A stretch of 64,000 nucleotides of DNA, taken from contig NC_088302.1 in NCBI RefSeq assembly GCF_032854445.1, positions 12,459,338 through 12,523,337 on the forward strand, read 5' to 3'. Made by a program: the position numbers and the translations under genes. Below the pieces are notes generated by a model that saw only the letters and a list, made by a program, of their open reading frames with translations, ran no database searches and was not told the origin of the DNA. The stretch is from Liolophura sinensis (Eukaryota > Mollusca > Polyplacophora > Chitonida > Chitonidae). Positions 45,193-63,172 of this stretch are shown here, in pieces (position 1 is the first letter of the stretch; each line of letters begins with the position of its first letter).

Positions 45193-45329
45193 ATGACCAA
45201 GGCCAGAGTAGATGATTTGACTGTTGCGAACCCTGGAATATCTGGAGAGCCAAAAGTCTCCGTCTCTGAAAATGTCAATATTTCCGGTCTTAGGCAGGTA
45301 TGCGAAAAGGGAACATCATTTGCCCGGAG
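45193..45329 (+). CDS. DEG/ENaC exon 1: start codon and cytosolic N-terminus
   Basis: The ATG at 45193 sits in a favourable context (ACAAAATGA) and opens 45 codons plus two bases, ending at a consensus donor CCGGAG|GTAAGT. The peptide begins MTKARVDDL and ends VCEKGTSFAR. The split codon completes with the first base of exon 2 to give arginine, so the chain reads ...SFAR-R-LIWLLLLL. An alternative donor, CAG|GTATGC after 45297, would leave phase 0 and would not match exon 2. The His-Gly pair usually found between this segment and TM1 is absent here. The 5' UTR and promoter could not be delimited; I saw no convincing TATA box. Confidence 0.7.
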
Positions 45330-48300
45330 GTAAGTATTTGTTTTCTTCTACACCACATTCACATCACTACTAACCACAACGTACATGGACTCAGTGCTGG
45401 TCTTAGACCGGTTATTTGTAGATTAATAACTTTCATTGTTCGTAGGGATCTTGGTGACAATAAGGGGTCAACAAGGCCCGTAATGTCGATTACGTAAACT
45501 TACGTTTGTTAAGGACTTGTAATAACCCAACATGGCATGCAGAACTATACACCACATTCGGGGGAAAGATTGATGGTTTACCACGGTCGTATTGATGGTT
45601 TATCCCAGTCAGATTGGTGGTTTACCCCGGTCAGATTGGGGGTTTATCCCGGTCAGATAGGGGGTTTATCCCGGTCAGATTGGTGGTTTGCCCCGGTCAG
45701 ATTGGGGGTTTATCCCAGTCAGATTGTCGGTTTAACCCGGTCAGATTGGTGGTTTACCCTGGTCAGATTGGGGGTTTATCCCAATCAGATTGTTGGTTTA
45801 ACCCGGTCAGACTGGGGGTTTACCCCAGTCAGATTGTTGGTTTACTCCGGTCATATTGGTGGTTTACCCCAGTCAGATTAGTGGTTTACCCTGGTCAGAT
45901 TGGTGGTTTATCCCGGTCAGATTGGTGGTTTACTCTGGTCAGATTGGTGGTTTACCCCGGTCAGATTGAGGGTTTACTCCGGTCAAATTGAGGGTTTATC
46001 CCAGTCAGATTGGGGGTTTATTCCAGTGCGATTGGGGGTTTATCCTGGTCAGATTGGGGGTTTACCCTGGTCAGATTGGGGGTTTGCCCTGGTCAGATTG
46101 GTGGTTTATCCAGGTCATATTGGTGGTTTGCCCTGGTGAGATTGGTGGTTTATCCCGGTCAGATTGGTGGTTTATTCCTGTCAGATTGGTGGTTTGCCCT
46201 GGTGAGATTGGTGGTTTATCCCGGTCAGACTGGTGGTTTATCCCGGTCAGACTGGTGGTTTATCCCGGTCAGACTGGTGGTTTACTCTGGTCAGATTGGG
46301 GGTTTATCCCGGTCAGATTGGTGGTTTATCCCGGTCAGATTGGTGGTTTATCCCGGTCAGATTGGGGATTTGCCCTGGTCAGATTGGGGGTTTATCCCGG
46401 TCAGATTGGTGGTTTGCCCTAGTCAGATTGGTGGTTTATCCCGGTCAGTCTGGTGGTTTGCCCTAGTCAGATTGGTGGTTTATCCCGGTCAGATTGGTGG
46501 TTTGCCCTGGTCAGATTGGTGGTTTATCCAGGTCATATTGGTGGTTTGCCCTGGTGAGATTGGTGGTTTATCCCGGTCAGATTGGTGGTTTATTCCTGTC
46601 AGATTGGTGGTTTGCCCTGGTGAGATTGGTGGTTTATCCCGGTCAGACTGGTGGTTTATCCGGTCAGACTGGTGGTTTATCCCGGTCAGACTGGTGGTTT
46701 ACTCTGGTCAGATTGGGGGTTTATCCCGGTCAGATTGGTGGTTTATCCCGGTCAGATTGGGGATTTGCCCTGGTCAGATTGGGGGTTTATCCCGGTCAGA
46801 TTGGTGGTTTGCCCTAGTCAGATTGGTGGTTTATCCCGGTCAGTCTGGTGGTTTGCCCTAGTCAGATTGGTGGTTTATCCCGGTCAGATTGGTGGTTTGC
46901 CCTGGTCAGATTGGTGGTTTATCCCGGTCAGATTGAGGGTTTACCCCGGTCAGATTGGTGGTTTACTCCCGTCAGATTTTTGGTTTACTCCCGTCAGATT
47001 GGTGGCTTACCCCGGTCAGATCTGACTGATGTAAACCCCCAGTCTAGTTTGCCCCGGTCAGCCTGTTGGTCTACCTTAGTCAGATTGGGGCTTTATCCCG
47101 GTTAGCTTGTTGGTTTACCCTCGTCAGATTGGTGGACCGCTATTAATTTGAAGAGAAACAAAACAATCAATCAATCATACACAGACTAGCTCAGCAATTC
47201 ATTTGGCAGTCTTAACCAACTGGAGAGTTCCAAGAGTTTGCAATAAAGCCCCGATAAATGTATTCCTACATGTACACGACTTACAAATACATGAAGTGGA
47301 ATAGGTTTACACAGCAAACATTGTCTTCAGTTTCTAACAGAAAGACAAATACACTCACAATTAATGTTCTCATTTTTCTTAGTGTCGACAAACCAAAAGT
47401 ATTTTGTATGTCAGCACACGTGAAAATAAATTTCCAGAGAGTTGATATCCCAGCTTGATTTATACACCAACTTTTAAGCTCTTTCCAAATTAAGTATTTA
47501 TTTATTTGATTGGTGTTTTACGCCGTACTCAAGAATATTTCACTTATACAATGGCGACCTGCACTATGGTGGGAAACCCCCGACCATCCACTTGTTTCAA
47601 AAGTAACTATGATAGAATGACGTCATAAAAAATGGATGAGGCATAACCGTGACACGATGAATTGTACAAAAATCACGCCCTTGGATAGGATAAACATCAA
47701 TAGCATTTTTGGGTTTCAGTTCTTCAATAATTTTGATAGTTTTCACATGTAATGTAAACCGGTATGAAAACAGGGCAGACTTCTAATGGAGTATTCATCA
47801 TGCACTGGAACCCTCGCCACGTCACTGCTGGTCTTTTATCGTGTTTATTCTTGGGGCTGCAAAACCTAAGTGAAAAAATATTTAAAATCACATGTTATTT
47901 ACTAATAATAATGCAGCAAGTTAGCATATATATACTACCAGGCAAAAGAAAGGTTTCGCCGTATTTTTTGTCATAAAAACAGTAAAAGCGCGGTTCCGGG
48001 TTTGATTCTAAGCAGGACTTAGCGTATGACTGCATCGTTTCCTCTACCAGAATGTATCGTCAAGAAAGCAGCAATTGGAATTGTGAAATTGCGACCACAT
48101 GCAAAACTTCCTTTTGAGGCATGGCTCGTGATGCACGTGCGGTAATGTTGCATAAATACTCTTGCTGGAAAGAGCAGACATTCAGTGACCGAAAAAACAC
48201 AAACAGTATGCCAAGACAACGCAAGCGCAACGAGACCAGGCCATCGGTATGTCCACCATGGGAGTCTCGCAAAGTCACATTGCAAGAACGTTCAACTGCA

Positions 48301-51300
48301 GCCAAACCACCATCAGGAGGTTGTTGATACGCTATCAGCAGACAGGCCAGACCCAAGACAGACCAAGATCGGGAAGACCGAGGGTAACAACTGCGGCTGA
48401 AGATCGCTACATCCGGCAGATCCACCTCCGAAACCGATTCCTTTTTTGAGAGAATATTTCACAATGATTTCTGTTTATGAACCAATCTTCTTAATTCTTA
48501 TATCTGCCTTTGTTTTTGTTTTATGGGCTCAAGAAGTGGGTGAAACCTTTCTTTTGTCTGGTAGTTTAGTAACACCCCATCCCCCTAATCCAGCACACTG
48601 GAGTACCCACTGTTTACATTTCACGTCCTTTAACAGTAGCGTTGATGTTGATGTGGACATCATGGATAGGCTGAAAATTTTGTTTTAGATCAATTTTGTG
48701 GTTCCCACTGCTAGGAAACGTACAAAGGCTCGCTCAGAACTACATCTGTCTGAAGGAAGGAGACACCTTTGCCGCCAAAGTTATGTAGTCCCATTCCTGC
48801 ATTTGCAATGATGTATTGTGGACAAACTGGTGACGTAGTACTCATGTGTTACAAGACAACAATGGTCAGTCCGGCTTGGACCTGAGTTGCCATTTCGCGG
48901 GAATATGCACCCAATTGAATTCACTATACCATCAACGAATTTGTGATAATATGTCCAGCCGTTTTACAGGACCATCTTGCCGGTATTACTCTTGGTCAAC
49001 TCAGAACTGACAGCTCATATCTGCCTGAAGTAGCTAAATTAACAATATCGTTTACGAATTTTTATGAAGCACTTTGTATAATTGTTGTACAGAGCTATCT
49101 CACTAGTGTTGTTTTTCGCCAGCTCAGAACCATATCTGCCTGAAGTAGCTAAATTAACAACATCGTTTACGAATTTTTGTGAAGCACTTTGTATAACTGT
49201 TGTACAGAGCTATCTCACTAGTGTTGTTTTTCGCCAGCTCAGAACCATATCTGCCTGAAGTAGCTAAATTAACAATATCGATTACGAATTTTTGTGAAGC
49301 ACTTTGTATAACTGTTGTACAGAGCTATCTCACTAGTGTTATTTTTCGCCAGCTCAGAACCATATCCGCCTGAAGTAGCTAAATTAACAATATCGATTAC
49401 GAATTTTTGTGAAGCACTTTGTATAATTGTTGTACAGAGCTATCTCACTAGTGTTATTTTTCGCCAGCTCAGAACCATATCCGCCTGAAGTAGCTAAATT
49501 AACAATATCGATTACGAATTTTTGTGAAGCACTTTGTATAATTGTTGTTCAGAGCTATCTCACTAGTGTTATTTTTCGCCAGCTCAGAACCATATCTGCC
49601 TGAAGTAACTAAATTAACAACATCGTTCACGAATTTTTGTGAAGCACTTTGTATAATTGTTGTACAGAGCTATCTCACTAGTGTTGTTTTCGCCAGCTCA
49701 GAACCATATCTGCCTGAAGTGTCTAAATTAACAATATCGATTACGAATTTTTGTGAAGCACTTTGTATAACTGTTGTACAGAGCTATCTCACTAGTGTTG
49801 TTTTTCGCCAGCTCAGAACCATATCTGCCTGAAGTAGCTAAATTAACAATATCGATTACGAATTTTTGTGAAGCACTTTGTATAATTGTTGTACAGAGCT
49901 ATCTCACTAGTGTTGTTTTTCGCCAGCTCAGAACCATATCCGCCTGAAGTAGCTAAATTAACAACACCATTCACGAATTTTTGTGAAGCACTTTGTATAA
50001 TTGTTGTACAGAACTATCTCACTAGTGTTGTTTTTCGCCAGCACAGAACCATATCTGCCCGAATTGGCTAAATTAACAACATCGTTTACGAATTTATGTG
50101 AAGCACTTTGTATAACTGTTGTTCAGAGCTATCTCACTAGTGTTGTTTTTCGCCAGCTCAGAACCATATCTGCTTGAAGTAGCTAAATTAACTATATCGT
50201 TTACGATCTTTTGTGAAGCACTTTGTATAATTGTTGTATAGAGCTATCTCACTAGTGTTGTTTTTTGGTCAGCTCAGAGCAATGTCTGTCTGAAGTAGCT
50301 AAATTAACAATATCATTTACGAATTTGTGTGAAATAATTTGTCTAATTGGTTTACAGACTGATCTGGCTATTGTTGCTTTTGGCCGGAACGTCTTTCTTG
50401 GTCTATCAGGTGTACAGGACCGTTAACTACTTTCTATCCGGACCCACCATACAGACAACGTCCACTGTCTACCCCTCTGATGTGCCATTCCCAGCGGTGA
50501 CAATCTGTAACCAAAACACAATCAGGTATATCAACTGTTACTCTTTACAATGATTCTTAAAGTGAAAGATTGCTAACAAATGAAGCAATGCTCACTGGGC
50601 TGTCAACCGAAAGACTGGTAAATATATTTTCATTTAATTTCTTATTTTTCTTTATATTCATATATATATATATGTATATATAGAAGGTGTTTAGGTACTA
50701 TAATGTCAAAGTTGTTGTCTCACTGTAAACAAAGCTTTTACATGTATTATTATTACCCACGAGTAAAAGATTATGTAAATAATGTTGTGAAAATCGCATG
50801 AAGGTGAATATAAAGTGACACCAGAGTGCCCAGACACTATCAATACGGTTCATAAAACCTACCTTAAAATTCAAACATCTAATTCCATCTTAAAATTTCC
50901 GAAAAAATCAGTAAAATTAACCTTATATATATTTTACACGTCTCGTTATGATTACCCCCTGAACGTAGGACTCATTGTACAACACATGTGGGAAATAACC
51001 AGTTCGTGCTTTTAAAACGTTTGTGTTACATTTGGCAATCAAAAAATGGCCCATAACTTGTCGCTCCGATTTGAGTATGCTTGCTTTTAGGCTTGCTGTG
51101 TTTAACATGTTTTTTTCCAGTAATGCACAGCCTTGATATGTTGATATTTATTTATTTATTTCATTGGTGTTTTACGCCATACTCACTTATTTCATTTACA
51201 CGCCGGCGGCCAGCATTGTGGTGGGAGAAAACTGAGCAGATCGGTTGTTGCTTTAGGTCACCAAGGTGCCGAGTTTTCAGAGTTTTACCATGTTACCTAC

Positions 51301-54300
51301 ACCCGCGAACTTTTGATCAGTCACTAAGGCGAAATGTCATTGAATTGGGATTATCATTGAATTGTAATTTTTCACAGGATAAGCACCACTTTCTTTTCAC
51401 CGTATTTTCAAGAGGAAACGTCAGAAAGATCACCGCTCGTATATGAGTCTTTGTTGATGTTAATGGCGTTACTGAACAGGAATGCTAGTCGGCTGGAGGA
51501 CGTTGACTTGAGCCAAATGTTTGGAGGTAGAACAGATTTCACATTAGAAACATTCTACAAGCAAAGCGGTCACACCATAGAAAGCATGATCAAACGGTAA
51601 GCTGAAGTATAAAGTAAGAACTACATTTAAAATGGTTACCATTCATTTAGGCGAATGTGTAAGAGGCATCACTAAAGTTGTTGTCAAAGAAAATATTTCC
51701 AACAATGTTAGATCATGTTACTGCAATGTTGATTAATCACTGTCTTTGACAGTCTTCTGTCCGTGGCCTCAATCTCAACATCCATCTGACGAGACACGGA
51801 AGGATATCACAAGCACATGAATGTGGACGGAAAGACTGGCATTCGCAATTATAGCCATTATAGGCTTAAATTATCTTAGATAATGGGCACACCAATGATG
51901 TTGCAGATTGCAAATGTCAGTGACTGCCAGAATTAAAAGCGGTATTGGATATACCAATGATATTGACTTTAGAGCGGTAATCTCAGACTTATGAATGGTA
52001 ATTGATATATCAATGATACTGACTGTCAGACTTATGAACGTAATAGATATACCACTGTTTTTGATTTTGCATACTTCAGTTATTTGCATGTTTAATCAGA
52101 TATATACATATTACTAACTGTCAAATTTCACAGTACAATGGATATAGTATATAGTGTTTGATTGTCATTTTTTCAAAATGTTGACGGAAGTACCAGAGGC
52201 CAAGTTTCTGAGGATTCATAGTATTGGTAGATATGCAACGATATTTTCAGATTTCATTGTTACAGGTGACAATGTTTATTTTCCAAGTTTACAACATAAA
52301 ACCGTGCATGTAGTCACAGAGTCTCGTTTTTGACTCGTTCTACAAGTACGCCCAAAATAGCTAGACTGATGTTATAGACTGTTGTGATATGAAGTTGTGA
52401 AATGTTTATTACCACCTGTAACTCGTTCTTTAGATGAACGCACCCCGGAAGGCGTTGTGATCGCTAAACTGATGTTACACGCTGCTGGTGTTATAGTTTG
52501 AAGCTTAGAAATGATTTAGCACCCTTGACTCGCTCTGTAGTCGTGAATACCCCAGAAGGCGTTGTGATATAACGAGACTGATGTTACAGACTGATTACGT
52601 TATAATGTTGAATTGTGAAATGTTTTTACTGTCTTTGACCCGTAAATACCCCAGAAGGCGTTGTAATGGCTATACTGATGTTGCACTCGTTGTTTACGTT
52701 GTGGTGTAAAACTGTAAAATCGATCCATTTGTCAGCCACACCGGCATTATCGTGGCGATTGTAACTTTAAATCACACATATGGATTTTATGGTGACAGAG
52801 ATATGTGTTATTTTAATAAGGATATCAGGATATAAGGATCTGGATAAAGTATTAGGTAAATAGTGCCCTGAAAGGCTGCATTAGGTGTTGTACTGTGTGG
52901 CATTGTGGTCTTGTCTGCAGCTGTGTGTTCAACGGAGTGCCGTGCCGACGTGAATGGTTCACAGCTCAACTCACAGACGCCGGTCACTGCTACACGTTCA
53001 ATGGCGCAAACAAAGACGGCGGCCTGCGGACGGCTTTACGTGGTGAGTGTTTCTACATTACTATTGCAATGACAACCGTAGGTTCGCTATCAGAGATAAA
53101 TATCCATCGGTAAATATGCACTTTCTATTGATTCTGGGTTTACAGAGTCGATTCTCACTGGCTGGTGTACTAGATAGGCAAGTCCAGCCTATGCCGTGCC
53201 TAAGTTGAATTTTAAGTATGATACTTTTATTCAACTGTGACCAAGGCTGCAAAGTTTAGCCCATATGACCCTGGTCTCCATTATTAGCCAGTCAATGTCG
53301 ATTCTGTTCCTCTTCAATGATCAACTCGGGGTGGGATTTCCGTAACTGAGCACAAAGACTCGGGAGCCTCCTATCAATGCGGTCGCCGTGAGTTCTAGTC
53401 CAGCTCATGCCGGCTTTCTCTCACGTTGTGGAAGGGAGGGAGCAACCTGCACACGGCCTTGGCCCCCCCCCCCCATCTAACTCTGCACAGTTTCCAGCCA
53501 CCATAATTCTGACCATTGTCGTACAAGTAGATAAATAAAACAATAAAATCACCGCCAAATCGCTACAACAGACGAATAAAGCTTGATATATTGCATCCAA
53601 AATATAGACCAAATGGTGACCTAGTGTCAAACATCCGTCTATGAGACAAAACTCCCTCACTGATTAGGAAAATGCAAAGATATGAACGCGTTCCATTCAC
53701 AAAGGCAGATCAATTACATTAATGATGATATTTTAGGACCATTTGGTTTAAAGTGAAAGACAGCATCTGACTAATGTTTATGTCCACTGAAAGATGAAAG
53801 CTGTGGACTTCGGCGATGAGCGCCCCAGTGATAAATATAGCTTTCAAGGAAATTGGACATACTGGAGGAATATTTCTTCTACTGCTTGAACTGTTGATAC
53901 AGCAGGCCCACTATATCATTCCCGGTTCAGGTCGTAGCATCCGGCGACGTTGTTTCAATAGCCTAGCAGATGCACGGCCGCGGTATTCCCGCTTCAGGTC
54001 GTAGCATCCGGCGACCTTGTTTCAATAGCCTAGCTGCAGATGCACGGCCGCGGTATTCCCGCTTCAGGTCGTAGCATCCGGCAACGCTGTTTCAATAGCC
54101 TAGATGCAGATGCACGGCCGCGGTATTCCCGGTTCAGGTCGTAGCATCCGGCGACGTTGCTTCAATAGCCTAGCTGTAGGTGTACGGCCGCAGTATTCCT
54201 GGTTCAGGTCGTAGCATCCAGCGGGGTGGTGCTGGGGATTTTAACCCGAATTAAATGCTTACAAAATTACAGAAGGATTGTTGTACAACTAGATTCATGC

Positions 54301-57300
54301 TCAATTCTGAAACTAATGAAAATAAATCAAAGTACCAATGAGGCTGACCTAGTCATTCGACTGTCGTTGGATTTTATGCTTCAATTTTGTAGAGGTGTCT
54401 TCTAAGATGAAAGGAGTGCTTATCGCGGAGAAGCACCTCGGTTTGAACACTGCGCCTCAATAATTTCGCTCTATTTTATAAAAGAAAACAAAGAGAACAT
54501 CTCTTGTATGCGAGAAAGACGAAGGAACAAAATTTAGATTCTTCAATTATAATAAATTCAGAGAAAACACCTTATATCATAAGATTTTTAATTAATTTTT
54601 AGCGTTGTCGGGTGAGATGCTGTCTTCTCATTCCCATAAACCTAGCTTCGGCATCCCTCATGAATTTTGCACTGACCTGGATATTTGTTATTTATAAACT
54701 GCTGACTAAACGCTTAAATGAACGACAAAAAATGTAATTTGGGGAGATGAATACAGTTTGGGCCGAGACAGTATGCTACCGTCTGGCATAATATGTGATG
54801 CCATCGTTGAATGTTAAGTCAACAACTGATATTCACGGCTTGTAAATCAACTGATTTTACATCTGTGGTGGCACGTGAATGAGTGAATGATTATGGATTA
54901 ACGCCACACTAGCAATTTTGCAGCCATATCGTGGCAAGGAGAAGTTTAAAACAGGAGCCAGTGAATGGTTTTCGATACAATAAAGAAACACTTGACATAA
55001 AACTAAAATAGACGAACATGTTTAAAACGACTCTATAAAAGAACCAAACCTTAGTAAAAATTCGAAAACCACAATATACTTATAACATTGTGGTAAAACC
55101 TATGAATATATGATATATTTGTACATATTTTTAAGAACTGAATTTTATGATATAGGCCAATGGCCTTAAATAATTTATGACAGCGTCGCCAGCAAAGGCG
55201 TCGAACACATCGAATATTGTGTTGACTGGGTAGAACTTTTCTCGAACTTGAGCAAAGAATACACAGTCAACAAGGGTATGTTTGATGCAATATTGAGCAT
55301 CACATCCAACACACTGTGGAGCAGTGCGCCCATCAAGAATAAAATGTCAAACGAGAATGGCAGATACGGCACCTTGTTAAAACTACTTGGTCTCTGCGAG
55401 ACATACCATGTGTATATTTATTTATTTATTTGATTGGTGTTTTACGCCGTACTCAAGAATATTTCACTTATACGACGGCGGCCAGCATTATGGTGGGAGG
55501 AAACCGGGCTGAGCCAGGGGGAAACCCACGACATTCCGCAGATTGCTGAAAACCTTCCCACTTACGGCCGGAGAGCAAGCCAGCATGAGCTGAACTAGAG
55601 CGCTACCGACTGAGCCACCATGTATATAAGAATTACAGCCAATGAGAGGTTGAATAGCGTGCAGTTTATTATGCACCTGTAAATCTCATTCAGCCTACCA
55701 AAGACGACGAACATATTTAAGAATATTAGACCTTTAATCAGTATAAGGGATTTTAATTTTGGATGTTGATTTATTAATGGCAGCTTTAGTATTCCTGTCT
55801 ACGACGTTGTATCCCATGGATATCCAACAAAATATAATATATATCTTTACCTCTTTTAATTAGTTTAATTAGGTAAGGATAAACTTTCAAGAATTAAGGG
55901 ATTTTTAAATTTATTATACTGTATTTCTGAAAGGCAGGCGAGTGAGTAACTACATATGAAAACATGAAAATTTTAGACATAGAAAATCTAAAACCGTTGG
56001 AAGCTGTCCATTTCTCAATCTTATTGAGACAAAGCTGCAGTTGCCGGTCGATGTTATTCATATTCTTAACGCGGTAGCATATACGGAAACCATTAATATA
56101 CAAAGAACCCTACGTACCAGATGTAAGAGTTTTAGCCCAACTATTTATTTTGATGCTAAAAATCTCGCAGAGAATAACTCTCAGAAGATGACTTCTGGAA
56201 TATTGTTTAAGCTAGTTTATTTGAGATATCATGAGGGGAGAATATCCTTAAGTTTCTGTAACATGTTCCAGACCTTATGCATGGGTGTTTTTGACGTAAT
56301 GCCTGGAACAAAGTCCCGCCAACAAGATCGTCTCTTGGACTTAATTAATGCTAGCTCTAAATATACGAACCTGGTTTAAATTATTCTTATCAGAACAATG
56401 ATTAAATCTGCGCTCTGCCTTTTTACGGTCCTTTATGGCTTTGCGACAGTCATCATCGTACCCGGTTTACTTTCGGATTTTGGATTTATCGAGGTCTAAG
56501 GTGTGGTTCTATCAGCTGCTGTTAAAATAAGTTCATTAAATTTTAACAAACGATGATCTGCAGCATAGTGATTTTCCGGAGTGATGTCGGCCTCACAGAA
56601 CACCCCAAATGCCATCCATTCTGCTTTATCGAACTTCCACCTAGCTACACGTTTCGAAGAATTAGAAGTGAGATGCTCTAGGACAATAGGAAAATGATCA
56701 CTACCATAGAGGTCGTCATGCACCTTCCGAGAAAATCCGGGAGAACTGATGGATTCGTGATAGTGAGATCTATAGCAGAATATGAAACATTACTGGATAT
56801 AAATAGCTCTTAGGACCATCAGTGAAATAACACAGTTCGTCTTTAGATAAAAAAAATCTTCCCCTATTTTGCCCTTGTCATTATATTATTATCCCCAAAG
56901 GGGATTATTGGCATTAAACTCTCTCATAATTATAAAAGGGGTTTGCAGTTGTTCCTTTAAATTATTCAACTGCGAAAGTTACAGCGAAGAATGAGGAAAA
57001 ACATAAACCGAACATAAAGTGATTGTTTCCGATAAAAAACACAGCGACAGCCTGAAGCTGTGGGCTATCGAGGGCAACAGGAACGTGAATAATATTATTA
57101 TTCACGAAGATAGAGGAGCCGCCACAAAGTTGCTATTCCTTATTAGAATAAGTGGCGTAAGGTGTATAAATTTTAAGAGTTATTTCATCTTTGTCATATG
57201 TCTTCAGGTGAGTTTACTGCAGACAAATGGCAATTGGATTTAAAGATTGAACCAGCTGTGTTATTTCAGTAAAATTTACCGTAACACCTCAACAATTCCA

Positions 57301-60300
57301 CTGTATAACTTTGTCTAAGGAAGACATTATGGAGGGAGGCGTATGGGTGATTTATGTTTAGACCGGGGACGACCCTTTTTGGGAGATCTGCTGGGAGATT
57401 GTGCAGCAGCAGATGATGTATCCATCACGTCTGCATCCGATGTTGAAGTATCAACGTCCTTCAATGACCCAAACCTATTAAAAGCTTGAATAGCATCCCT
57501 AGTGGCCTTACAGGGACGTTCCATGGGTCCAAAATGTTTATCTCTCTTATGATTTTTACCAGATTTATATTTGTTACCCGTTGAGTTCTATGAAGAATCA
57601 ACAGTTTTGTGAGATTTCGATTTATTTACACATAATGTGTGGTCAAATAAAAAAACTGCAGGAGAATCAGGTAAAGTAGCAGGTTTCTAAGAAGATATAA
57701 ATCGGGTTTCCTTACAACATTGGCATATGTAGATCTAGTAAGGCCATACGTGGCAGAGACTAGGTTCCGCTCTTCCTGTGATATATTATTTTTACATTTC
57801 AGAGATATGATTTCTTTTTTTTTGAATATAGGGCAGCCCTGGGATAGGGCTATGTGGGTTCCGCTGCAATTCAAACATTTTATTGGTTTTGTGCAGTCGA
57901 AGCCCTCGTGACCTGCTTCCCACATCTAAACCACACCAGTTTATTGTAACATTGACTAATGCCATGGCCAAACCTTTGGCAGGAGAAACACCGGGTGTGG
58001 TGAGGTATAAACAACTCCACCCTTACATATACGGCCAGAGAAAGATAAATGACGGAAGCAGATATATGTTCGTTTTAATAAGATTTCCATCTCTTTTAAT
58101 TATGAAGCGTTTTACATCCATCATTCCTTAGTATTTACGTTCTTCAGTTATTTTTTGTTCCGTCATTTCGGCAAGGCCTTGGTCTCTGTCACGGATTTCG
58201 CCATGACAGCTGTTTAAGATGTTATAAGGAGAAACAGAGACAGTCTGCTGTCTTATTTTGTGAACTTTCAGTAAGCGTATATATTGTTGTTTTCTGGAAC
58301 ATTCCAACAAAATGTTACCAGATTTAATTTTCTTGACTTGTTTTAAAGTTCCAGCATAGTTTTCTGTTTTTTTTTAAACAAATGGATCTATTTTCATTTT
58401 GTCTTGATTTTTGTTTACTAGGAAAGTAGGAAAAATAATTGTTTCGTGCTTCAGTATCTAGCGTTATTCATTTCTTCTTTTCTTTCCAACGACTGTTAAA
58501 ATTTGTGAGGAGACCATGATGTATTTTTATTAATTTCACCTTTCGTGTCCCCCATCCACCACGAAGTGCCACCAAAGGCGAATCCACCTCTGCGGAATCC
58601 ACAAACGATATACTCCAACAAACTGCGTTTAACTAATGGTTAAGTTCAATCTACTTGATTGACCCAATGGCCACCGCCTTCTACACTGACCCAAAGAAAG
58701 AACATCCAAAGAAAAACCAACTTCACAACTTACAGTAAGTGAACAAATGACAAACGGGATCAAGTGTAAGCTTGACGCATCCAGTTGATTGATTGGACCG
58801 GGCCTGTCTGACCTCCCGTCCAGGAGAAGTAAGGGCCAAAGTGGCGTTTTGGGTTTGAGGGTCTCGTAAGACCAACACGCCCTCAGCCACCAGGATCCCG
58901 TCCTCTTCCATTACGGGTCGCAACCTACGGCCAACAGGTCGCTCCCCGGTTGCCTCTCACACAACAGAGATGATGTGAGCATATTATATTCACCGGGCCC
59001 ACACTGTAGGTTAGCCGCCTTTCACGACAAGCTTGCCTAGAGGGCTAAGGTCCTATTCTTTTTACCCCGGAGACCCCACGGGGTGTACGTAAATGATACA
59101 GACGTACCCAGGAACACTTTGCGAAATGGCGCTTCGGTTACACGTAATTAATCGTTGTAAACGATGTCAAACTGATGTCCTATATTTTTGTGTTATTACA
59201 TATCACTTCATGGAATGAATAGGTAAAGACTACGTCAACTTTTTTTACGCCGCGCTATCTGATAGCAACGTGTTTGATTGGATAATATTCTGAAGATGGC
59301 TGCCTCGATTCACCCCAGGCATTTGTGCAGTGTTGTCATTTTGTTCTACATGTTGTTCGGTAAAATCTCATTCAAATGATAAAGTATGGTACTTTTAGAA
59401 AGCTTGAATATCCTGCTTTCGATTCAAATATATTTTAACCAGGTGCTGTCTTTCACTTTTGGATGTCAGACTTAATGGTTAACTATTTGAAATCAAGCTT
59501 AATGGCTAACCATTTCATTGAACCTTTGGATGTCAGGCTTAATGGTTGACTATTTGATATCCAGCTGGATGTTATACCATTTGGTTCAATCATTAAATGC
59601 ACAGCTGTCTTGCTGACTGTTTAACTTCCTTTTTTTTTAACAGGTAAGAATGGCGGACTTACCTTAGAGTTGAACGTGGAGCAATACGAGTACTCATACA
59701 GTCGAACAAACACCGCGGGTGTGTATCTTCTAATCCATGACCAATCAGAAATACCCAACCTCGTTCTGAATAGAGCCCTAGCCGTCACTTCCGGCTATCA
59801 CACCTCTATCTCTCTCGGTCTCCTCAACGTAAGTAATCTGTATTTTAAGGTCAAGTATTCATATGGTGTCAAGATTGTGCATAGCTTTAAAATTGCTTAC
59901 ATGAAAAATTTTAAGGCATTCTGGTGTAAATTACAACAAAACTATCCGAAAGTAAGCAGAAATGTAACACCAGAAAATCCTTCATGAATTTGCCTAAGAA
60001 CAATACGTAAAGCTGTCGTCGAGTATATATAAGAATTTTCCCACCAATTCCGTGGGGAGAGTTTAATAAATATTAGGCCTATTTGTTACCATAACGACAA
60101 CTCTTGTTCACAGAGAACAAGTTATCAAAACAAACATGGGAATTGCGGAAGAAGCCAGTTGACGTACTTTCCGGTTGGGCAGCCATATACTCGGTCGGCT
60201 TGTGAACTTGATTGTCTTACCAGATACGTACGGGACACGTGTAAATGTATCTACCATTACATGCCAGGCTATCTTAACGGTGAGACAAACACCATTCCAA

Positions 60301-63172
60301 ACACACATATAAGTAACTTCCCGAAAGTTTAAGGCCCTGTAGTCAGAAACCACTCAGAAAGATACAAAAACTAAGCAGCACTGTATGGCATATGCTCATT
60401 TTTGTGTGGCAATGGAGGTAATTTTCCGGTCTATACAGGTCCAAGCTGTGCATTTATTTGTTTACTTGGTGTTTTACGCCGTACTCAGCAATATATCATT
60501 TCTACGACGGCGGTCAGCATTATGGTGGAAGGAAACCAGGCAGAGTTCGGGTGAAACCCTCGACCATCAGCAGGTTGCTGAAACAGACGAAGCCAGCATG
60601 GTCCAAGCTGTGTAAAAATTTATCAGTCTACGGTGTTACGTTGCAGTGCTTTTAATGTACCATGGATTTTAGTTTGGTACTAAAGCTGCCAGAAGCTGTG
60701 AAGTACATGTATAGCAGAAAAGAACAAAAGAGTTCACCACGTGCATCACCTTGTCCAGGCATGTTATACACCCAATTTTATGTCGTCAAGACACTTCATT
60801 ACTTGGCCTTGATTTTAAGCTAAACAAGCTTTTTTTAGGGCCGGTGGAGGACTTCAGAAAATTTCAGATTTTCCTTCGCCGTTAAAGCAGTATGTGAGTT
60901 TTATCGTCATCTGTAGCTTCCATAATCGTTTGTGTAGCCAGCTTTTGTGTTTAACTTTAAAATGGCTTTTAACACACCTTTGAGACATTCTGTTGTAAAT
61001 ATTGTAAGCTTTATATGGATTTACATCCAAACATTAAGCCTAAATCATGATCTGATGGTAAATCAAGGAGGAGTGTCTGGCCTGCTGTCAGTATTCCTGG
61101 ACAGTCTGGATGATGTATGATTTTTCCGGCATGTTAAAAGCAAAGTTAAACCTATAGCAAACAGTCAGATTGCTGTTCCATCGTTTGCTGTCTTTGGGAT
61201 CATTTCCTTCCGATCGTTTTATGACAAACTTGTCCCTATTATTAATCGAATAATAATAATAATCTGTTATCCTCCTGCACCGGTACAAAAATGTTTGGTG
61301 AAATAACCGAGCATCATACATAAAAAAACAGTATAATGATTTCGTCTTATTCCTATACGTAAAACTGAAGGAATAACTATTTTTATCTCGCATTATAGGC
61401 TCTGTTTTATTTCTGGATGAAATCATATCAGTTGTGAGTACACTGATGTTTAAAATGGGATGACCGCTTGTTGCTGTTCTTTCTGTTGCAGCCCGTCAGG
61501 AAGATAAATGTGATGTGTTCAAGACTGTGTCTTGTGTCTTCCCAGAAGCAGGTGATTGGTTTATTGAGATTCTTCGCTGTTTAGGGTTTTGTAGCACAAC
61601 TGCTTTTTTTTTCACTCCGAATACAATATGTTTTGCTGAAATAACTTGCTGTTTTTCTCCGAGTAGACTTAACAAACGCCCCAGGAGTTTCACCAAAAGG
61701 TAAAAATAAAAAACCGTTTCACATAACTGGTATATCAGGGTACAATAACTGTAATTGTAGTCTATACCACGATAGCGAAACCAAAAATCGCAGCTTCTGA
61801 CCGTCTCGTGGTCTCCTGGTCAAGGTGCTTGCCCAGTATTTACTACGCCACCGGTGACGTGGGTTCAACCCCAGCTTTGCAATGATATTTTCATGGTCCC
61901 GCTGGTTCCATCGTTCTCGAGCCATTGGTGGCAAGCAGTGCTCTTCTTGGATGGTCTTACATAAATTTCCCTATAGACCACATGCCTTCCACTACTTAGA
62001 CATGCGTCACACTTGGGGAAGTTCACCAGTAACTCGCCACAGGTGAATGGTTTTTGCCAAGCACAGCTGTTTCCTGCACTAATAATACCGTGGGCCATCA
62101 GATAAGCGAATTATTTCTGAGTGTGACATCAAAATATAAACAAATAAATACATAAATACACAAATACAAACATAAAATGAAATAAATAAAACTTTATCAT
62201 GTTTTTAACTTGTATGACGGCTGGTTAACTGACGATTCATAAACAGGCTAATGTGAATGTAGTGGAACTATTCAATACCCGTGGGAATACTGGTGTTTTT
62301 TATTTCACTGATGCAGCCTGTATGTTGGATCTTGGCATTAAATATTATTTTGTTGTATCTCTTGCAGACAGTTTTCCGACTAAGGCCATCTACTCGACTT
62401 ATTGCCAATGTAAAACGCCGTGCCAAATCATCAGTTATTTGACATCTGTGTCTCAGGTGAAAATATCTGACCTGGCAGCGAATCTGTTTGTGTTGGAAGA
62501 AAAGTTTGGCGATGAGGTTTTTGCCCAATACGTCATGGGGATGATGATGAGAGACTGGGTCCTTCTACGAGGGACCAGAAGTACTGACCTGGTTGATGCC
62601 ATTCACAGCGTGGTGTATAACTCTATCACACCTGTACGGGAAGCTTACAACGTTTTAATAGACTCCAAGACACACATGCATCTGGTCCCAATTGCTTTGT
62701 CATGCAAGACAAATAATTCACAACAATATTGTCAGGAAGATCTATTCTCCACTCTGGAGACATTGTCGGAGGGTTTCAAGGGTGAACGCCCTCTAAGCGA
62801 GTGGTACCGTCCCCACAACGTAATCCAGACTGTTGAACTGAACGTAGATTTGGCACATAAACTACTGACGAAATCGGAGTATGAGTTGACACTTGTAGCC
62901 CAATTAGGTCATAACTGTTCTGGTGCTGTATCAATTTTGGACGACGTTCTCGTGGACATCAGCGCAAACTGCAACACTAGCTCCGAAAACAGTTCTGACG
63001 TAACCTTGATTCTGAAGGTACTGACTGGTATACGCGAAGCGTTTGACAAAGCCCACGAATCGGTTGAGCATCAAAAACAAAGCTACGACATCTTATTGCA
63101 GCACGTCAGCACCAATCTTGGGAAGTGGTATTTACCTTGGAACGAGATGGCACTGGACGCTACATTTTACAG
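45193..63172 (+). CDS. DEG/ENaC-family sodium channel subunit (ASIC/FaNaC-like), 8 exons, 3' end outside window
   Basis: Predicted subunit of a trimeric, amiloride-type cation channel of the plasma membrane. Eight exons (45193-45329, 50358-50525, 51378-51596, 52921-53042, 59644-59828, 60114-60279, 61492-61551, 62368-63172) join with compatible phases into 620 codons without a stop. In order they show a cytosolic N-terminus (about 1-46), TM1 (about 47-66), the family signature FPAVTICN (90-97), the C-x-F-N-G-x-x-C and G-x-C-Y-T-F-N blocks of exon 4, the GVYLLIHD strand of exon 5, the cysteine-rich C-x-C / YMPG block of exon 6, and C-x-C-K-x-P-C (365-371) in exon 8. TM2 with its selectivity filter is not in the window. 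Whether it is proton-, peptide- or mechanically gated cannot be told. The exon joins are my manual prediction; family assignment is secure, exact exon ends less so. Confidence 0.9.
45568..47131 (+). repeat. Minisatellite, 22-bp unit, about 71 copies (intron 1)
   Basis: The unit is approximately ATTGGTGGTTTA followed by YCCCGGTCAG, repeated almost without interruption. Because 22 is not a multiple of three, the three forward frames cycle through each other and stay open for long stretches, giving a 22-residue peptide period (GQIGGLSRSDWWF... type). These open frames are a by-product of the unit, not a gene. A 418-bp block (19 units) starting at 46083 is repeated at 46501, with one unit and one base lost in the second copy. 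Confidence 0.97.
47494..47602 (-). mobile_element. SINE fragment (internally deleted), intron 1
   Basis: Reads TATTTATTTATTTGATTGG, TTTTACGCCGTACTCAAG, then CACTATGGTGGG and CCCCCGACCATCC. On the plus strand the AT-rich 3' tail is at the left, so the SINE lies on the minus strand. The segment between the GGTGGGA and CCCCGACC blocks is shortened compared with the copy at 55413. Confidence 0.85.
48205..48447 (+). pseudogene. Tc1-like transposase N-terminal relic
   Basis: MPRQRKRNETR opens at 48209, then the reading shifts by one base. GVSQSHIARTFNCSQTTIRR, a helix-turn-helix, continues from about 48249, followed by the GRPRVTT linker and AEDRYIRQIHLRNRF, ending at a stop at 48447. This is the paired-like DNA-binding half of Tc1/mariner transposases. 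The DDE catalytic domain is missing and I see no terminal inverted repeats, so it is a dead fragment in intron 1 of the channel gene. Confidence 0.85.
48998..50357 (+). repeat. 115-bp satellite ending on the exon 2 splice acceptor (intron 1)
   Basis: Units beginning AGCTCAGAACCATATCTG start at 49121, 49236, 49351, 49466, 49581, 49695, 49810, 49925, 50040, 50155 and 50271, so spacing is 115 bases apart from one 114 and one 116. A divergent first unit lies near 48958-49120 and a fragment at about 48731. Each unit carries TTGTACAG or a variant. The last unit reads into exon 2: its TTTACAG is the true acceptor and the following 28 bases match the repeat at about 20 positions. Confidence 0.95.
50358..50525 (+). 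CDS. DEG/ENaC exon 2: TM1 and FPAVTICN motif
   Basis: Acceptor TTTACAG|ACTGATC and donor ATCAG|GTATAT bound 168 bases with phase 2 on both sides, so this exon could be duplicated or skipped without shifting the frame. It encodes RLIWLLLLLAGTSFLVYQVY (TM1) followed by a short stretch and VPFPAVTICNQNTI, the strongest DEG/ENaC signature in the window. The bases before the acceptor, and about the first 28 exon bases, are homologous to the 115-bp satellite that fills the end of intron 1. Confidence 0.92.
51144..51236 (-). mobile_element. SINE tail fragment, intron 2
   Basis: ATTTATTTATTTATTTC followed by TGGTGTTTTACGCCATACTC and GGCGGCCAGCATTGTGGTGG: the 3' half of the same SINE, minus strand, ending about 140 bases before exon 3. 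The tRNA-like head is missing. Confidence 0.85.
51378..51596 (+). CDS. DEG/ENaC exon 3: proximal extracellular domain
   Basis: Acceptor TTTTTCACAG|GATAAG follows a pyrimidine run, and donor AAACG|GTAAGC is near consensus. In phase 2 from exon 2 the exon reads ISTTFFSPYFQEE and continues through MALLNRNAS to HTIESMIKR, with no stop. The ending MIKR followed by CVFNG in exon 4 matches the usual family layout, where the finger/thumb cysteine block follows a helix. The other two frames contain stops. Confidence 0.85.
51885..52065 (+). repeat. Degenerate tandem repeat, about 62-bp unit (intron 3)
   Basis: Three to four diverged units share GATATACCAATGATATTGAC-like and AGACTTATGAA-like segments. 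Spacing is irregular. No coding potential. Confidence 0.6.
52325..52725 (+). repeat. Degenerate tandem repeat, about 100-bp unit, 4 copies (intron 3)
   Basis: The marker ACTGATGTTAYA recurs at about 52365, 52468, 52577 and 52674. Each is preceded by CCCMGAAGGCGTTGTGAT or a variant and by a GACTCGTTCT-like segment. Units have diverged by substitutions and small indels. Confidence 0.75.
52921..53042 (+). CDS. DEG/ENaC exon 4: first extracellular cysteine block
   Basis: Acceptor CTGCAG|CTGTGTG and donor CGTG|GTGAGT bound the exon. It completes the split arginine and encodes CVFNGVPCRREWF followed by AGHCYTFNG, a close match to the family's C-x-F-x-G-x-x-C and G-x-C-Y-T-F-N motifs (first two disulfide pairs of the extracellular domain). 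It ends in phase 1 and joins exon 5, which starts with two bases completing a glycine codon. Confidence 0.92.
53363..53545 (+). mobile_element. SINE, plus strand, diverged, intron 4
   Basis: Begins in a tRNA-like head (CAATGCGGTCGCCGTGAGTT, CTAGTCCAGCTCATGCCGGC, with a B-box-like GTGAGTTCTAGTCC) and continues with a degraded GTTTCCAGCCACCATAATTC body and an AGATAAATAAAACAATAAAA tail. A C13 run interrupts the body. The usual TACGCC tail is lost. Confidence 0.7.
53747..54718 (+). repeat. Dispersed repeat copy B with internal 70-bp array (intron 4)
   Basis: Starts TTAAAGTGAAAGACAGCA like copy A at 19729. After the 70-bp array it realigns from about 54217 (GGTGGTGCTGGGGATTTTAA; copy A GGTTGTGCTGGTGATTTTGA) to about 54718, including ATTGTTGTACAAC, GATTTTATGCTTCAATTTTG, TTATAAAAGAAAACA and GATATTTGTTATTTATAAAC. 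It is a mobile-element-like paralogue pair of unknown class. I see no ORF, TIR or LTR. Confidence 0.85.
53921..54225 (+). repeat. 70-bp minisatellite, 4 full units plus a partial, inside dispersed repeat B
   Basis: Units starting CCCGSTTCAGGTCGTAGCAT begin at 53921, 53988, 54058, 54128 and 54198 (first unit 67 bases, the rest 70). Each contains TTTCAATAGCCTAG and CACGGCCGCGGTATT. It is GC-richer than the surroundings. Copy A of the host repeat lacks this array. Confidence 0.93.
55190..55835 (-). pseudogene. LINE ORF2 C-terminus: RNase H-like end and CCHC motif, split by a SINE
   Basis: Right of the SINE the minus strand reads VDRNTKAAINKS, SNILKYVRRLW and NKLHAIQPLIGCN. Left of the SINE it continues with RRDQVVLTRCRICHSRLT, then PQCVGCDAQYCIKHTLVDC, a P-x-C-x2-C-x7-H-x4-C finger usual at the end of jockey-type ORF2. 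The domain order is kept across the SINE, which shows the SINE landed in an existing LINE. Confidence 0.8.
55413..55618 (-). mobile_element. Near-complete tRNA-derived SINE nested in the LINE
   Basis: Minus strand: head GTGGCTCAGTCGGTAGCG, a textbook polymerase III A box, then TTCAGCTCATGCTGGC, GGTTTCCTCCCACCATAATG, CCGCCGTCGTATAAGTGAAA, TTGAGTACGGCGTAAAACAC and an (AAAT)n tail. Probable target duplication CATGTGTATA / CATGTATATA at 55407 and 55619. This is the best reference copy in the window. Confidence 0.93.
55894..56240 (-). pseudogene. LINE reverse transcriptase fragment, catalytic box destroyed
   Basis: SIKINSWAKTLTSGT, a stop, then GSLYINGFRICYR and RQLQLCLNKIEKWTASNGF. In working copies the second block reads Y/F-x-D-D-F; here it is Y-I-N-G-F, so both catalytic aspartates are lost. 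Most of the fingers and palm upstream is deleted between 56496 and about 56240. Confidence 0.8.
56496..57325 (-). pseudogene. LINE ORF2 apurinic-type endonuclease relic
   Basis: Starts next to the ORF1 end with VIQWNC, continues with SLNPIAICLQ, an MREFNANNPLWG segment (normally GDFNAHN-x-WG) and DDLYGSDHFPI, which holds the catalytic S-D-H. The first glycine-aspartate of the GDFN motif is changed (MREFN), and several stops interrupt the frame. Confidence 0.82.
57327..58540 (-). pseudogene. LINE ORF1 (gag-like, CCHC zinc knuckle) relic
   Basis: Minus-strand pieces in several frames: LLECSRKQQYIRLLKVHKI, then MMDVKRFIIKRDGN, then GHEGFDCTKPIKCLNC with SGTHIALSQGCPIFKKKEI, and a basic, serine-rich C-terminus (SPSRSPKKGRPRS). 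The VEC-S-R-K-Q-Q, DVKRF and C-x2-C-x3-H-x4-C elements are those of ORF1 RNA-binding proteins of jockey-like LINEs. Several frameshifts and stops lie between the pieces. Confidence 0.82.
59456..59585 (+). repeat. Degenerate short tandem repeats before exon 5
   Basis: TTTGGATGTCAGACTTAATG / GTTAACTATTTGA recurs in varied form two to three times (GGATGTCAGGCTTAATGG, GTTGACTATTTGA). Immediately to the left, 59441-59458 is the reverse complement of the AGTGAAAGACAGCACCT start of dispersed repeat A. Confidence 0.6.
59644..59828 (+). CDS. DEG/ENaC exon 5: palm/beta-ball region
   Basis: Acceptor TTTTTTTTAACAG and donor CTCAAC|GTAAGT bound 185 bases. The peptide has GLTLELNVEQYEY, then AGVYLLIHDQSEIP and GYHTSISLGLLN. 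The L-x-L-N-V-x-x-x-x-Y, G-V-x-x-x-I-H-D and G-x-x-T-S-I-S elements are standard DEG/ENaC extracellular strands. The exon ends in phase 0. The 6.6-kb intron before it holds a SINE, a dispersed repeat and a LINE relic. Confidence 0.92.
60114..60279 (+). CDS. DEG/ENaC exon 6: cysteine-rich thumb block
   Basis: Acceptor TTGTTCACAG and donor TTAACG|GTGAGA. In phase 0 it reads RTSYQNKHGNCGRSQLTYF and later ACELDCLTRYV, DTCKCIYHYMPGYLN. The N-C-G, C-x-x-D-C, C-x-C and H-Y-M-P-G sequence is the typical thumb cysteine ladder. It ends in phase 1. Confidence 0.92.
60451..60599 (-). mobile_element. SINE fragment with perfect 13-bp target duplication, intron 6
   Basis: CATTTATTTGTTTACTTGG, TTTTACGCCGTACTCAGC, ACGGCGGTCAGCATTATGG and CGACCATCAGCAGGTTGCTG identify the same SINE, minus strand, missing its head. 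It is flanked by GGTCCAAGCTGTG at 60438-60450 and 60600-60612, an exact direct repeat made at insertion. Confidence 0.93.
61492..61551 (+). CDS. DEG/ENaC exon 7: short linker exon
   Basis: A 60-base exon between acceptor TTCTGTTGCAG and donor AGCAG|GTGATT. It encodes ARQEDKCDVFKTVSCVFPEA, phase 1 in and phase 1 out. The frame stays open past the donor for about 150 bases, but the donor phase matches the next acceptor exactly and the following exon resumes the family motif. I therefore treat the read-through as intron. Confidence 0.8.
61795..62195 (+). mobile_element. tRNA-derived SINE, different head, plus strand, intron 7
   Basis: The head has an A-box-like CTCCTGGTCAAGGTGCTTGC and a B-box-like GTGGGTTCAACCCC (tRNA spacing). 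A body with GGGAAGTTCACCAGTAACTC, GCTGTTTCCTGCACTAATAA and CCGTGGGCCATCAGATAAG follows, then a long AAATAAATACATAAATAC tail. It ends about 175 bases before exon 8. Confidence 0.75.
62368..63172 (+). CDS. DEG/ENaC exon 8: C-x-C-K-x-P-C block plus long unusual extension
   Basis: Acceptor GTATCTCTTGCAG; the split codon completes to aspartate (DSFPTKAIYSTY). C-Q-C-K-T-P-C follows, then SQVKISDLAANL, the usual helix before the last strand and TM2. In ASIC-type channels TM2 follows within about 65 residues. Here the frame runs on to about 245 residues after this block without a hydrophobic segment and ends at a donor, TTTTACAG|GTAACA, in phase 2. The extension is hydrophilic, has several N-x-S/T sequons (around NNSQ, NCSG, NTSS and NSSD) and extra cysteines, which suits an extracellular location. 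I do not recognise a domain in it. Confidence 0.85.

Follow-up and report, generated by a model that had tools for sequence, protein, structure and literature searches.

The window, a 64,000-nt stretch of Liolophura sinensis DNA, carries on its plus strand a gene of the DEG/ENaC channel family. The coding part of exon 1 (137 nt, 45193-45329) was recognised from the sequence; it closes in phase 2 with GGAG/GTAAGT (here and below, the slash marks the splice junction), a donor that agrees with the consensus at 8 of 9 positions. Exon 2 (168 nt, 50358-50525), which encodes the first transmembrane segment (TM1) and the FPAVTICN region, was located by a match to PF00858 (C8:12509690-12509941, E 1.8e-12) and by the equal start of 13 paralogous exons. 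Two further PF00858 matches on the same strand mark downstream DEG/ENaC exons at 59640-59825 (C8:12518977-12519162) and 60057-60284 (C8:12519394-12519621). The gene was assigned to the family by its Pfam ASC domain and by an exon 2 that reads ...FPAVTICNQN, the assignment being based on matches to individual exons. The combination of FPxVTxCN and TM1 in exon 2 is a DEG/ENaC hallmark.

The PF00858 profile search of the genome listed 76 matches, and 13 of these were chosen as a paralogue set for their equal profile start in an apparent short exon. The acceptor position was identical in all 13 paralogues fetched and splits the same arginine codon in each; a tryptophan occupies the fourth residue in 12 of them, and in 13 of 14 family exons with the window included. 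At 29-126 kb before the window (C8:12333649-12430547), further PF00858 matches, a number of them in long open frames, make up a DEG/ENaC gene cluster. Elsewhere on C8 (C8:37880506-37891931), eight matches to the haemocyanin beta-sandwich profile (PF14830), a family that marks molluscs, were found in a row, and one open frame there matches haemocyanins such as KLH1 in PDB; on these grounds the genome was taken to be molluscan.

Several repeats lie in or near the gene. Intron 1 holds an array of 71.5 copies of a 22-bp unit (45567-47135), which starts about 240 nt after exon 1, crosses no splice site and has three weak matches (70-71%) on C12 and C2. A 70-bp array of 4.4 copies (91% matches) is found farther downstream in the DEG/ENaC gene region (53918-54223). 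The segments at 47478-47628, 51145-51327, 55343-55549 and 60343-60615 have similar translations (GVLRRTQEYFTYT.. or CFTPYS..), as judged from the open reading frame list only, and are probably copies of one dispersed element.

A 115-bp array across the intron 1/exon 2 acceptor

A second array in intron 1 was delimited by TRF at 49016-50385 (period 115, 11.9 copies, 93% matches), and it runs into exon 2. Eleven core units of about 115 bp were placed at 49015-50279 (plus strand) by TRF and by in-register acceptor anchors, with decoy acceptors ending at 49092, 49207, 49322, 49437, 49552, 49667, 49781, 49896, 50011, 50126 and 50241. The corresponding look-alike 3' splice sites run in register from 49093 to 50242 at a spacing of 115 bp (114 once), and the real acceptor, 50357/50358, occupies the next place in this register. 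The terminal unit (50280-50385, plus strand), delimited by register, shuffles and genome search, is the real end of intron 1 together with the first 28 nt of exon 2. It shares with the core consensus 67 of 78 intron bases, including 30 of the last 37 as counted on the match line, and 20 of the first 28 bases of exon 2; beyond these only 2 of 9 bases agree and the likeness ends.

Dinucleotide shuffles of the exon segment, compared in the fixed register, did not reach 20/28 in any of 100,000 trials (mean 9.9, sd 2.0). At least 20 of 28 bases were matched at 12 of 63,973 plus-strand positions of the window, all inside 49000-50400, and at none of the 63,973 minus-strand positions; the best exon-like match after any YAG outside the array was 15/28 (n=1,690 sites in the 64-kb window). 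When the genome was searched with 50270-50525 as query, 11 unit alignments were obtained among the best-scoring candidates, all in the array itself. Ten of these ended at query base 116, which is 50385 and 28 nt inside exon 2, and the remaining one at query base 112. Two core units as query gave six matches among the best-scoring candidates, confined to the same array. Neither query placed the 115-bp unit anywhere else in the genome among these candidates, and nhmmer found no match to it at E 1 in the fetched introns of the 13 paralogues. A dispersed satellite DNA family, which would have its unit at several loci, is not supported, matches among the best-scoring candidates being confined to the array.

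The preliminary description had proposed that eleven look-alike acceptors stand before the real one in an array that crosses it in register, that about 30 of 37 bases up to the junction and about 20 of 28 exon bases are shared, and that tandem amplification had acted on a segment reaching across the intron 1/exon 2 border. These points are borne out: TRF and the genome alignments both carry the array into exon 2 as far as 50385, the counts agree, and the fixed register, the shuffle controls and the single locus found all favour local amplification; a twelfth look-alike, unit 0, is added below. That description had named two observations that would tell against it. The first, a junction likeness no better than that of shuffled sequence, is contradicted by a likeness far above shuffles, and for the second, a satellite widespread without DEG/ENaC sequence, no copy was found outside the locus among the best-scoring candidates.

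Mean pairwise identity among the core units was 92.5% (range 80-99%; ten units, ungapped), and the last core unit matches their consensus at 79 of 85 positions. The number of units was read from one assembly, so that an assembly error in the count is possible. The predicted RNA fold of one 115-bp unit is ordinary (z -0.18). The exon 2 starts of the 13 paralogues agree with the core at 9-16 of 28 positions, 16 being reached by the two most similar, and their intron ends at 17-30 of 74, where the intron end of the window reaches 63. Because the acceptor is at the same place in all 13 paralogues, exon 2 would be the older and the satellite its copy; the comparison indicates that the exon boundary is ancestral and that the satellite was made from exon 2.

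Upstream of the core, a decayed twelfth copy (unit 0, 48916-49013, plus strand) was recognised by nhmmer, shuffles and blastn, with a decoy acceptor at 48969/48970 that has TTTTACAG and an exon-like tail. With the array masked, unit 0 alone gave an nhmmer E value of 3.4e-6 for 48916-49007; the value of 9e-26 for 48916-49077 counts core bases too. Its local alignment scores, 25 to the real boundary and 21 to the core, were each equalled by none of 5,000 shuffles. The exon-like 44 nt of unit 0 are significantly similar to the core (a score reached by 4 of 5,000 shuffles), and their similarity to exon 2 itself was not significant (339 of 5,000). Unit 0 agrees with the real boundary at about 55-56 of 82 positions and with the core at 52 of 82, and the real boundary agrees with the core at 66 of 86. 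This oldest satellite unit is adjoined by a dispersed SINE-like repeat (48756-48915; 40 scored matches in the genome, of which one is its own and 39 lie at 74-86%), on the far side of which a 25-bp segment (48731-48755, plus strand; weak nhmmer match, E 0.02) is possibly a crumb of a still older unit.

A three-way alignment of unit 0, the real boundary and the core consensus has 45 columns in which all agree, 10 in which unit 0 and the real boundary agree against the core, 7 in which unit 0 and the core agree, and 17 in which the real boundary and the core agree against unit 0, which is therefore the most diverged; three columns differ in all and 10 are gapped. By parsimony, about 10 changes fall on the branch from which the core arose, 7 on that of the real boundary and 17 on that of unit 0, and the changes in the core lineage include an AG 21 bases from the decoy's own AG. 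Taken with the identity figures, this suggests that the first duplication left the decayed edge copy and that a derived inner copy was amplified later.

Boundary-crossing arrays in other genes

Exons elsewhere in the genome were surveyed for the same architecture. In the 13 exon 2 paralogues the acceptor side was examined up to 1.9 kb upstream. The other sets comprised 20 other DEG/ENaC exons (window rows, long-open-frame rows and one further candidate row left out), 60 of 152 PF02931 matches for Cys-loop receptors (rows 43-102), 18 of 19 PF00005 matches for ABC genes and 20 of 81 PF00063 matches for myosins (rows 5-24); major facilitator genes, considered as a control family, gave 13 matches, most of them in long open frames, and were left out. 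An automatic scan of 118 exons flagged seven, five of which were kept on reading (L057, L062, L069, L078 and L127). With L006, clear boundary-crossing arrays were found at six of 131 exons besides the window, one at an acceptor and five at donors. By set, the clear cases were 1 of 13 for DEG/ENaC exon 2, 0 of 20 for other DEG/ENaC exons (with one doubtful case, L033, 70% over 57 bp), 4 of 60 for Cys-loop receptors, 0 of 18 for ABC genes and 1 of 20 for myosins, counts in which crossings can be missed because Pfam match ends are not exact exon ends, and which are not fully independent because recent gene duplication seems to lie behind some of the loci (C7:48.75-48.82 Mb). No boundary-spanning array was found at the 12 DEG/ENaC exon 2 paralogues other than L006. 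One candidate, L108, was rejected because its array begins about 12 nt inside the intron and does not cross; L133, faintly similar at the donor, was left out of the count, and several other surveyed exons have arrays nearby without a crossing.

The units at the six further loci are unrelated in sequence to that of the window and, with the window, the seven arrays fall in three gene families (DEG/ENaC, Cys-loop receptor and myosin). The same architecture at six of 131 other exons indicates that the window case is less singular than was earlier thought.

The acceptor array belongs to a second DEG/ENaC gene (C8:29802700-29805143), in which 5.3 copies of a 73-bp unit (L006:1684-2068) cross the homologous intron 1/exon 2 acceptor. 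It resembles the window array in lying across this acceptor and in reaching about 24 nt into the exon, and differs in that its 73-bp unit is of unrelated sequence and four of its five upstream copies have no in-register AG. An upstream decoy at L006 scores 14.0 against 3.6 for the presumed real acceptor, and its use leads to a stop.

Among the donor arrays, the myosin case (L127, C12:686179-687464, minus strand; 723-1247 in gene orientation) has about eight copies of a 66-bp unit that includes the last 16 nt of the exon and the donor CAG/GTATGTG. Seven exact copies of ATCATCAG/GTATGTG were counted there with the real one, and the six decoy donors equal it. At L078 (33 bp) there are 11 copies, which read TACAACAT/GTAA after the real TACAACAG/GTAA; at L069 (139 bp), CCAAAG/GTAGGTCTA occurs four times exactly, and at L062 (102/209 bp), TCACAAAG/GTAA occurs at three places, the real donor being counted at all three of these loci; at L057 (39 bp), no second exact donor copy was found. 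L057, L062 and L069 are Cys-loop receptor paralogues with arrays of different periods at the donor of an apparently homologous exon. Read-through past the real donor met a stop before the first decoy found in all five donor arrays.

Outside the matched exon edges, tandem self-similarity covered about 8-10% of positions at 100-530 nt, 6.7% at 50-100 nt and 3.8% at 0-50 nt; just inside the edges it covered 1.9%, and it was found at none of 118 exon midpoints. Arrays thin out toward exons, yet continue across the splice site; no enrichment at splice sites is claimed. Such a distribution would arise if duplication is tolerated across a splice site and is not tolerated inside an exon. A wider reading, which we consider rather unlikely, is that splice-site-crossing minisatellites are a standing component of this mollusc genome (about one exon in 20), so that many introns contain near-perfect copies of their own splice sites. 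Splicing would then be governed less by site sequence than by position (the first donor and the last acceptor, with exon definition), and changes in copy number would feed a variable amount of stop-containing, unproductive splicing.

Copies as splice sites and as exons

Acceptors were scored with a matrix trained on the 13 paralogue sites (leave-one-out median 11.0, minimum 3.6). The real acceptor scored 6.3 and the 12 decoys 1.5-5.8, and the AG-free stretch upstream measured 57 nt at the real site, 21 nt at the core decoys and 9 nt at the unit 0 decoy. The real site is weak by comparison with the paralogue median, and its margin over the best decoy is therefore small. Strength alone cannot explain the choice of site, because the decoy at L006 outscores the real site and the decoy donors at L127 equal the real one; exon definition together with position would appear to decide it.

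All 12 decoys retain their AG and all 12, when joined to exon 1, meet a stop before exon 2, a combination that perhaps points to a decoy function. The array could in that case divert pre-mRNA to unproductive splicing and tune channel output by copy number; the preliminary description had offered the tuning of splicing as one possibility. The AG followed by a stop is what a poison-type decoy would need, and exact copies of the donor persist in three of the five donor arrays too, the first of them preceded by a stop. Regulation of this kind is nevertheless improbable, since the AG-free tract of the core units is short and their acceptors score below the gene's own, and four of the five upstream copies at L006 are without an in-register AG. 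Nor is there significant extra conservation in the core: variable columns numbered 3 of 33 in the exon-like part and 15 of 78 in the intron-like part (p 0.26), counted over nine full-length core units with the 114-bp unit and the last core unit left out. Coding constraint on the exon-like part was rejected on the same comparison, which gave no significant signal.

The array might also be an intermediate of intron gain, later use of a unit's acceptor and donor making a new intron or exon, as PMC3087553 proposes for amphioxus mirages. For the window this is very unlikely, as 12 of 12 read-throughs meet a stop and no unit now has a good donor; the best donor-like site in any unit agrees with 5-6 of 9 consensus bases, against 8 for the real donor of exon 1 and 7 for that of exon 2.

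The preliminary description had gone further, suggesting that the copies are formerly usable TM1-start exons or alternative TM1 segments, each central unit being open in the phase of exon 2. Openness was confirmed for 9 of the 11 core units, which encode the peptide RAISLVLFFASSE... (in one of them A and S are each replaced by T), and not for those at 49668 and 50242, in which the frame shifts inside the exon-like part. Past the acceptor, eight of the 11 moreover have an open stretch of over 50 codons and a hydrophobic start, which would speak for mutually exclusive or cassette exons. Such a use of the copies is hardly credible, however, because they resemble exon 2 over only about 28 of its 168 nt, have no donor better than 6 of 9, and carry a serine codon in all 11 core units in place of the tryptophan that 13 of 14 family exons share; the frame shifts in two core units, and none of the 12 copies reaches exon 2 without a stop. 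An alternative exon cluster was rejected on the donors and stops, and the expectation that copies would not break the frame fails, because 115 is not a multiple of three and every decoy reaches a stop.

That an unrelated satellite invaded the intron and came to resemble exon 2 by chance, or by convergence on T-rich hydrophobic codons, is scarcely to be entertained: the two most similar paralogue exons do reach 16/28 through common coding sequence, but the window's 20/28 lies in one fixed register, continuous with the 67/78 intron bases, is equalled by no shuffle and by no other place in the window, and belongs to a unit found at one locus only among the best-scoring candidates. The remaining suggestion of the earlier account, a neutral satellite seeded from a gene, fits best of those it offered.

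Origin of the array and known counterparts

The array is best read as a boundary-spanning minisatellite of the amphioxus 'mirage' kind, seeded locally, buffered by splicing and tolerated because the authentic site would still be used; we put the probability of this reading at roughly 0.85. From the alignments, a segment of about 115 bp (about 87 bp of intron end and about 28 bp of exon 2) was duplicated in tandem in the DEG/ENaC gene. The duplication would have been silent: the last acceptor in the row still leads into an intact exon 2, and each extra copy would have become intron. The upstream edge copy decayed. A derived inner copy, by parsimony some 10 substitutions away from the states common to unit 0 and the gene, would later have given rise to eleven similar units, with unequal exchange or slippage as the presumed mechanism. 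Exon definition probably still selects the real acceptor, because it has the sole long AG-free tract, the best score and a good donor 168 nt away, and use of a decoy would yield a premature stop. A function is not needed to account for the array.

Seven such arrays in one mollusc genome suggest that any repeat-rich genome with long introns can give rise to them, and that an exon can be the seed of a satellite while the mRNA stays unchanged. They also offer natural experiments on splice-site choice, in which an authentic site is set against as many as a dozen of its own copies.

Repeats at splice boundaries have been described in other systems, and in the open-licence literature found, mirages have so far been an amphioxus matter. 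No mollusc case of a boundary-spanning repeat was found among the open-licence papers listed. Human exon-intron boundaries can contain internal tandem repeats that vary and can end up in the intron (PMC2812944); these differ from the window array in belonging to segmental duplications, in that half of the repeats lie in coding sequence, and in being discussed in terms of intron formation. Splice-site repeats are reported for lancelet PGBD5, with troponin C cited alongside (PMC3902484); there the organism is a lancelet, the evidence was drawn from genome sequence, and one array is partly annotated as exon. Mirages in Adh3 of two amphioxus species (Canestro et al. 2002, as cited in PMC3087553 and PMC3902484) are distinguished from the window array by units of 10-72 bp and a reported somatic length instability.

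The closest counterparts are the mirages of the amphioxus globin genes BflGb6 and BflGb9, in which a boundary is copied in tandem in the manner of a minisatellite (PMC3087553). In BflGb9 the repeated stretch is the 3' boundary of exon 2. In BflGb6 each unit, 150-160 bp long, consists of the 3' end of an intron and the 5' part of exon 2, and there are six or three units by haplotype, with 81-100% identity; the cluster edges are excluded from homogenisation, splice signals are kept in many but not all copies, and RT-PCR of the globin mirage genes suggested normal splicing. The window array shares three structural features with mirages: its tandem units carry sequence from both the intron and the exon side of a single authentic splice boundary, an AG ends all 12 decoys, and the cluster edges are diverged while the inner units are alike (unit 0 to core 52/82, real boundary to core 66/86, core mean 92.5%). 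It is most likely of the mirage kind, in what would be a new phylum as far as the open-licence literature shows. The globin mirages have RT-PCR and haplotype data behind them, whereas the window array is known from the sequence of one assembly; they belong to cephalochordate globin genes, whereas the window has a mollusc DEG/ENaC gene with 12 copies and the real boundary. In its build, the window array is nonetheless like the BflGb6 mirage as described there, with an intron end and exon 2 start repeated in tandem, the AG kept and the edges diverged.
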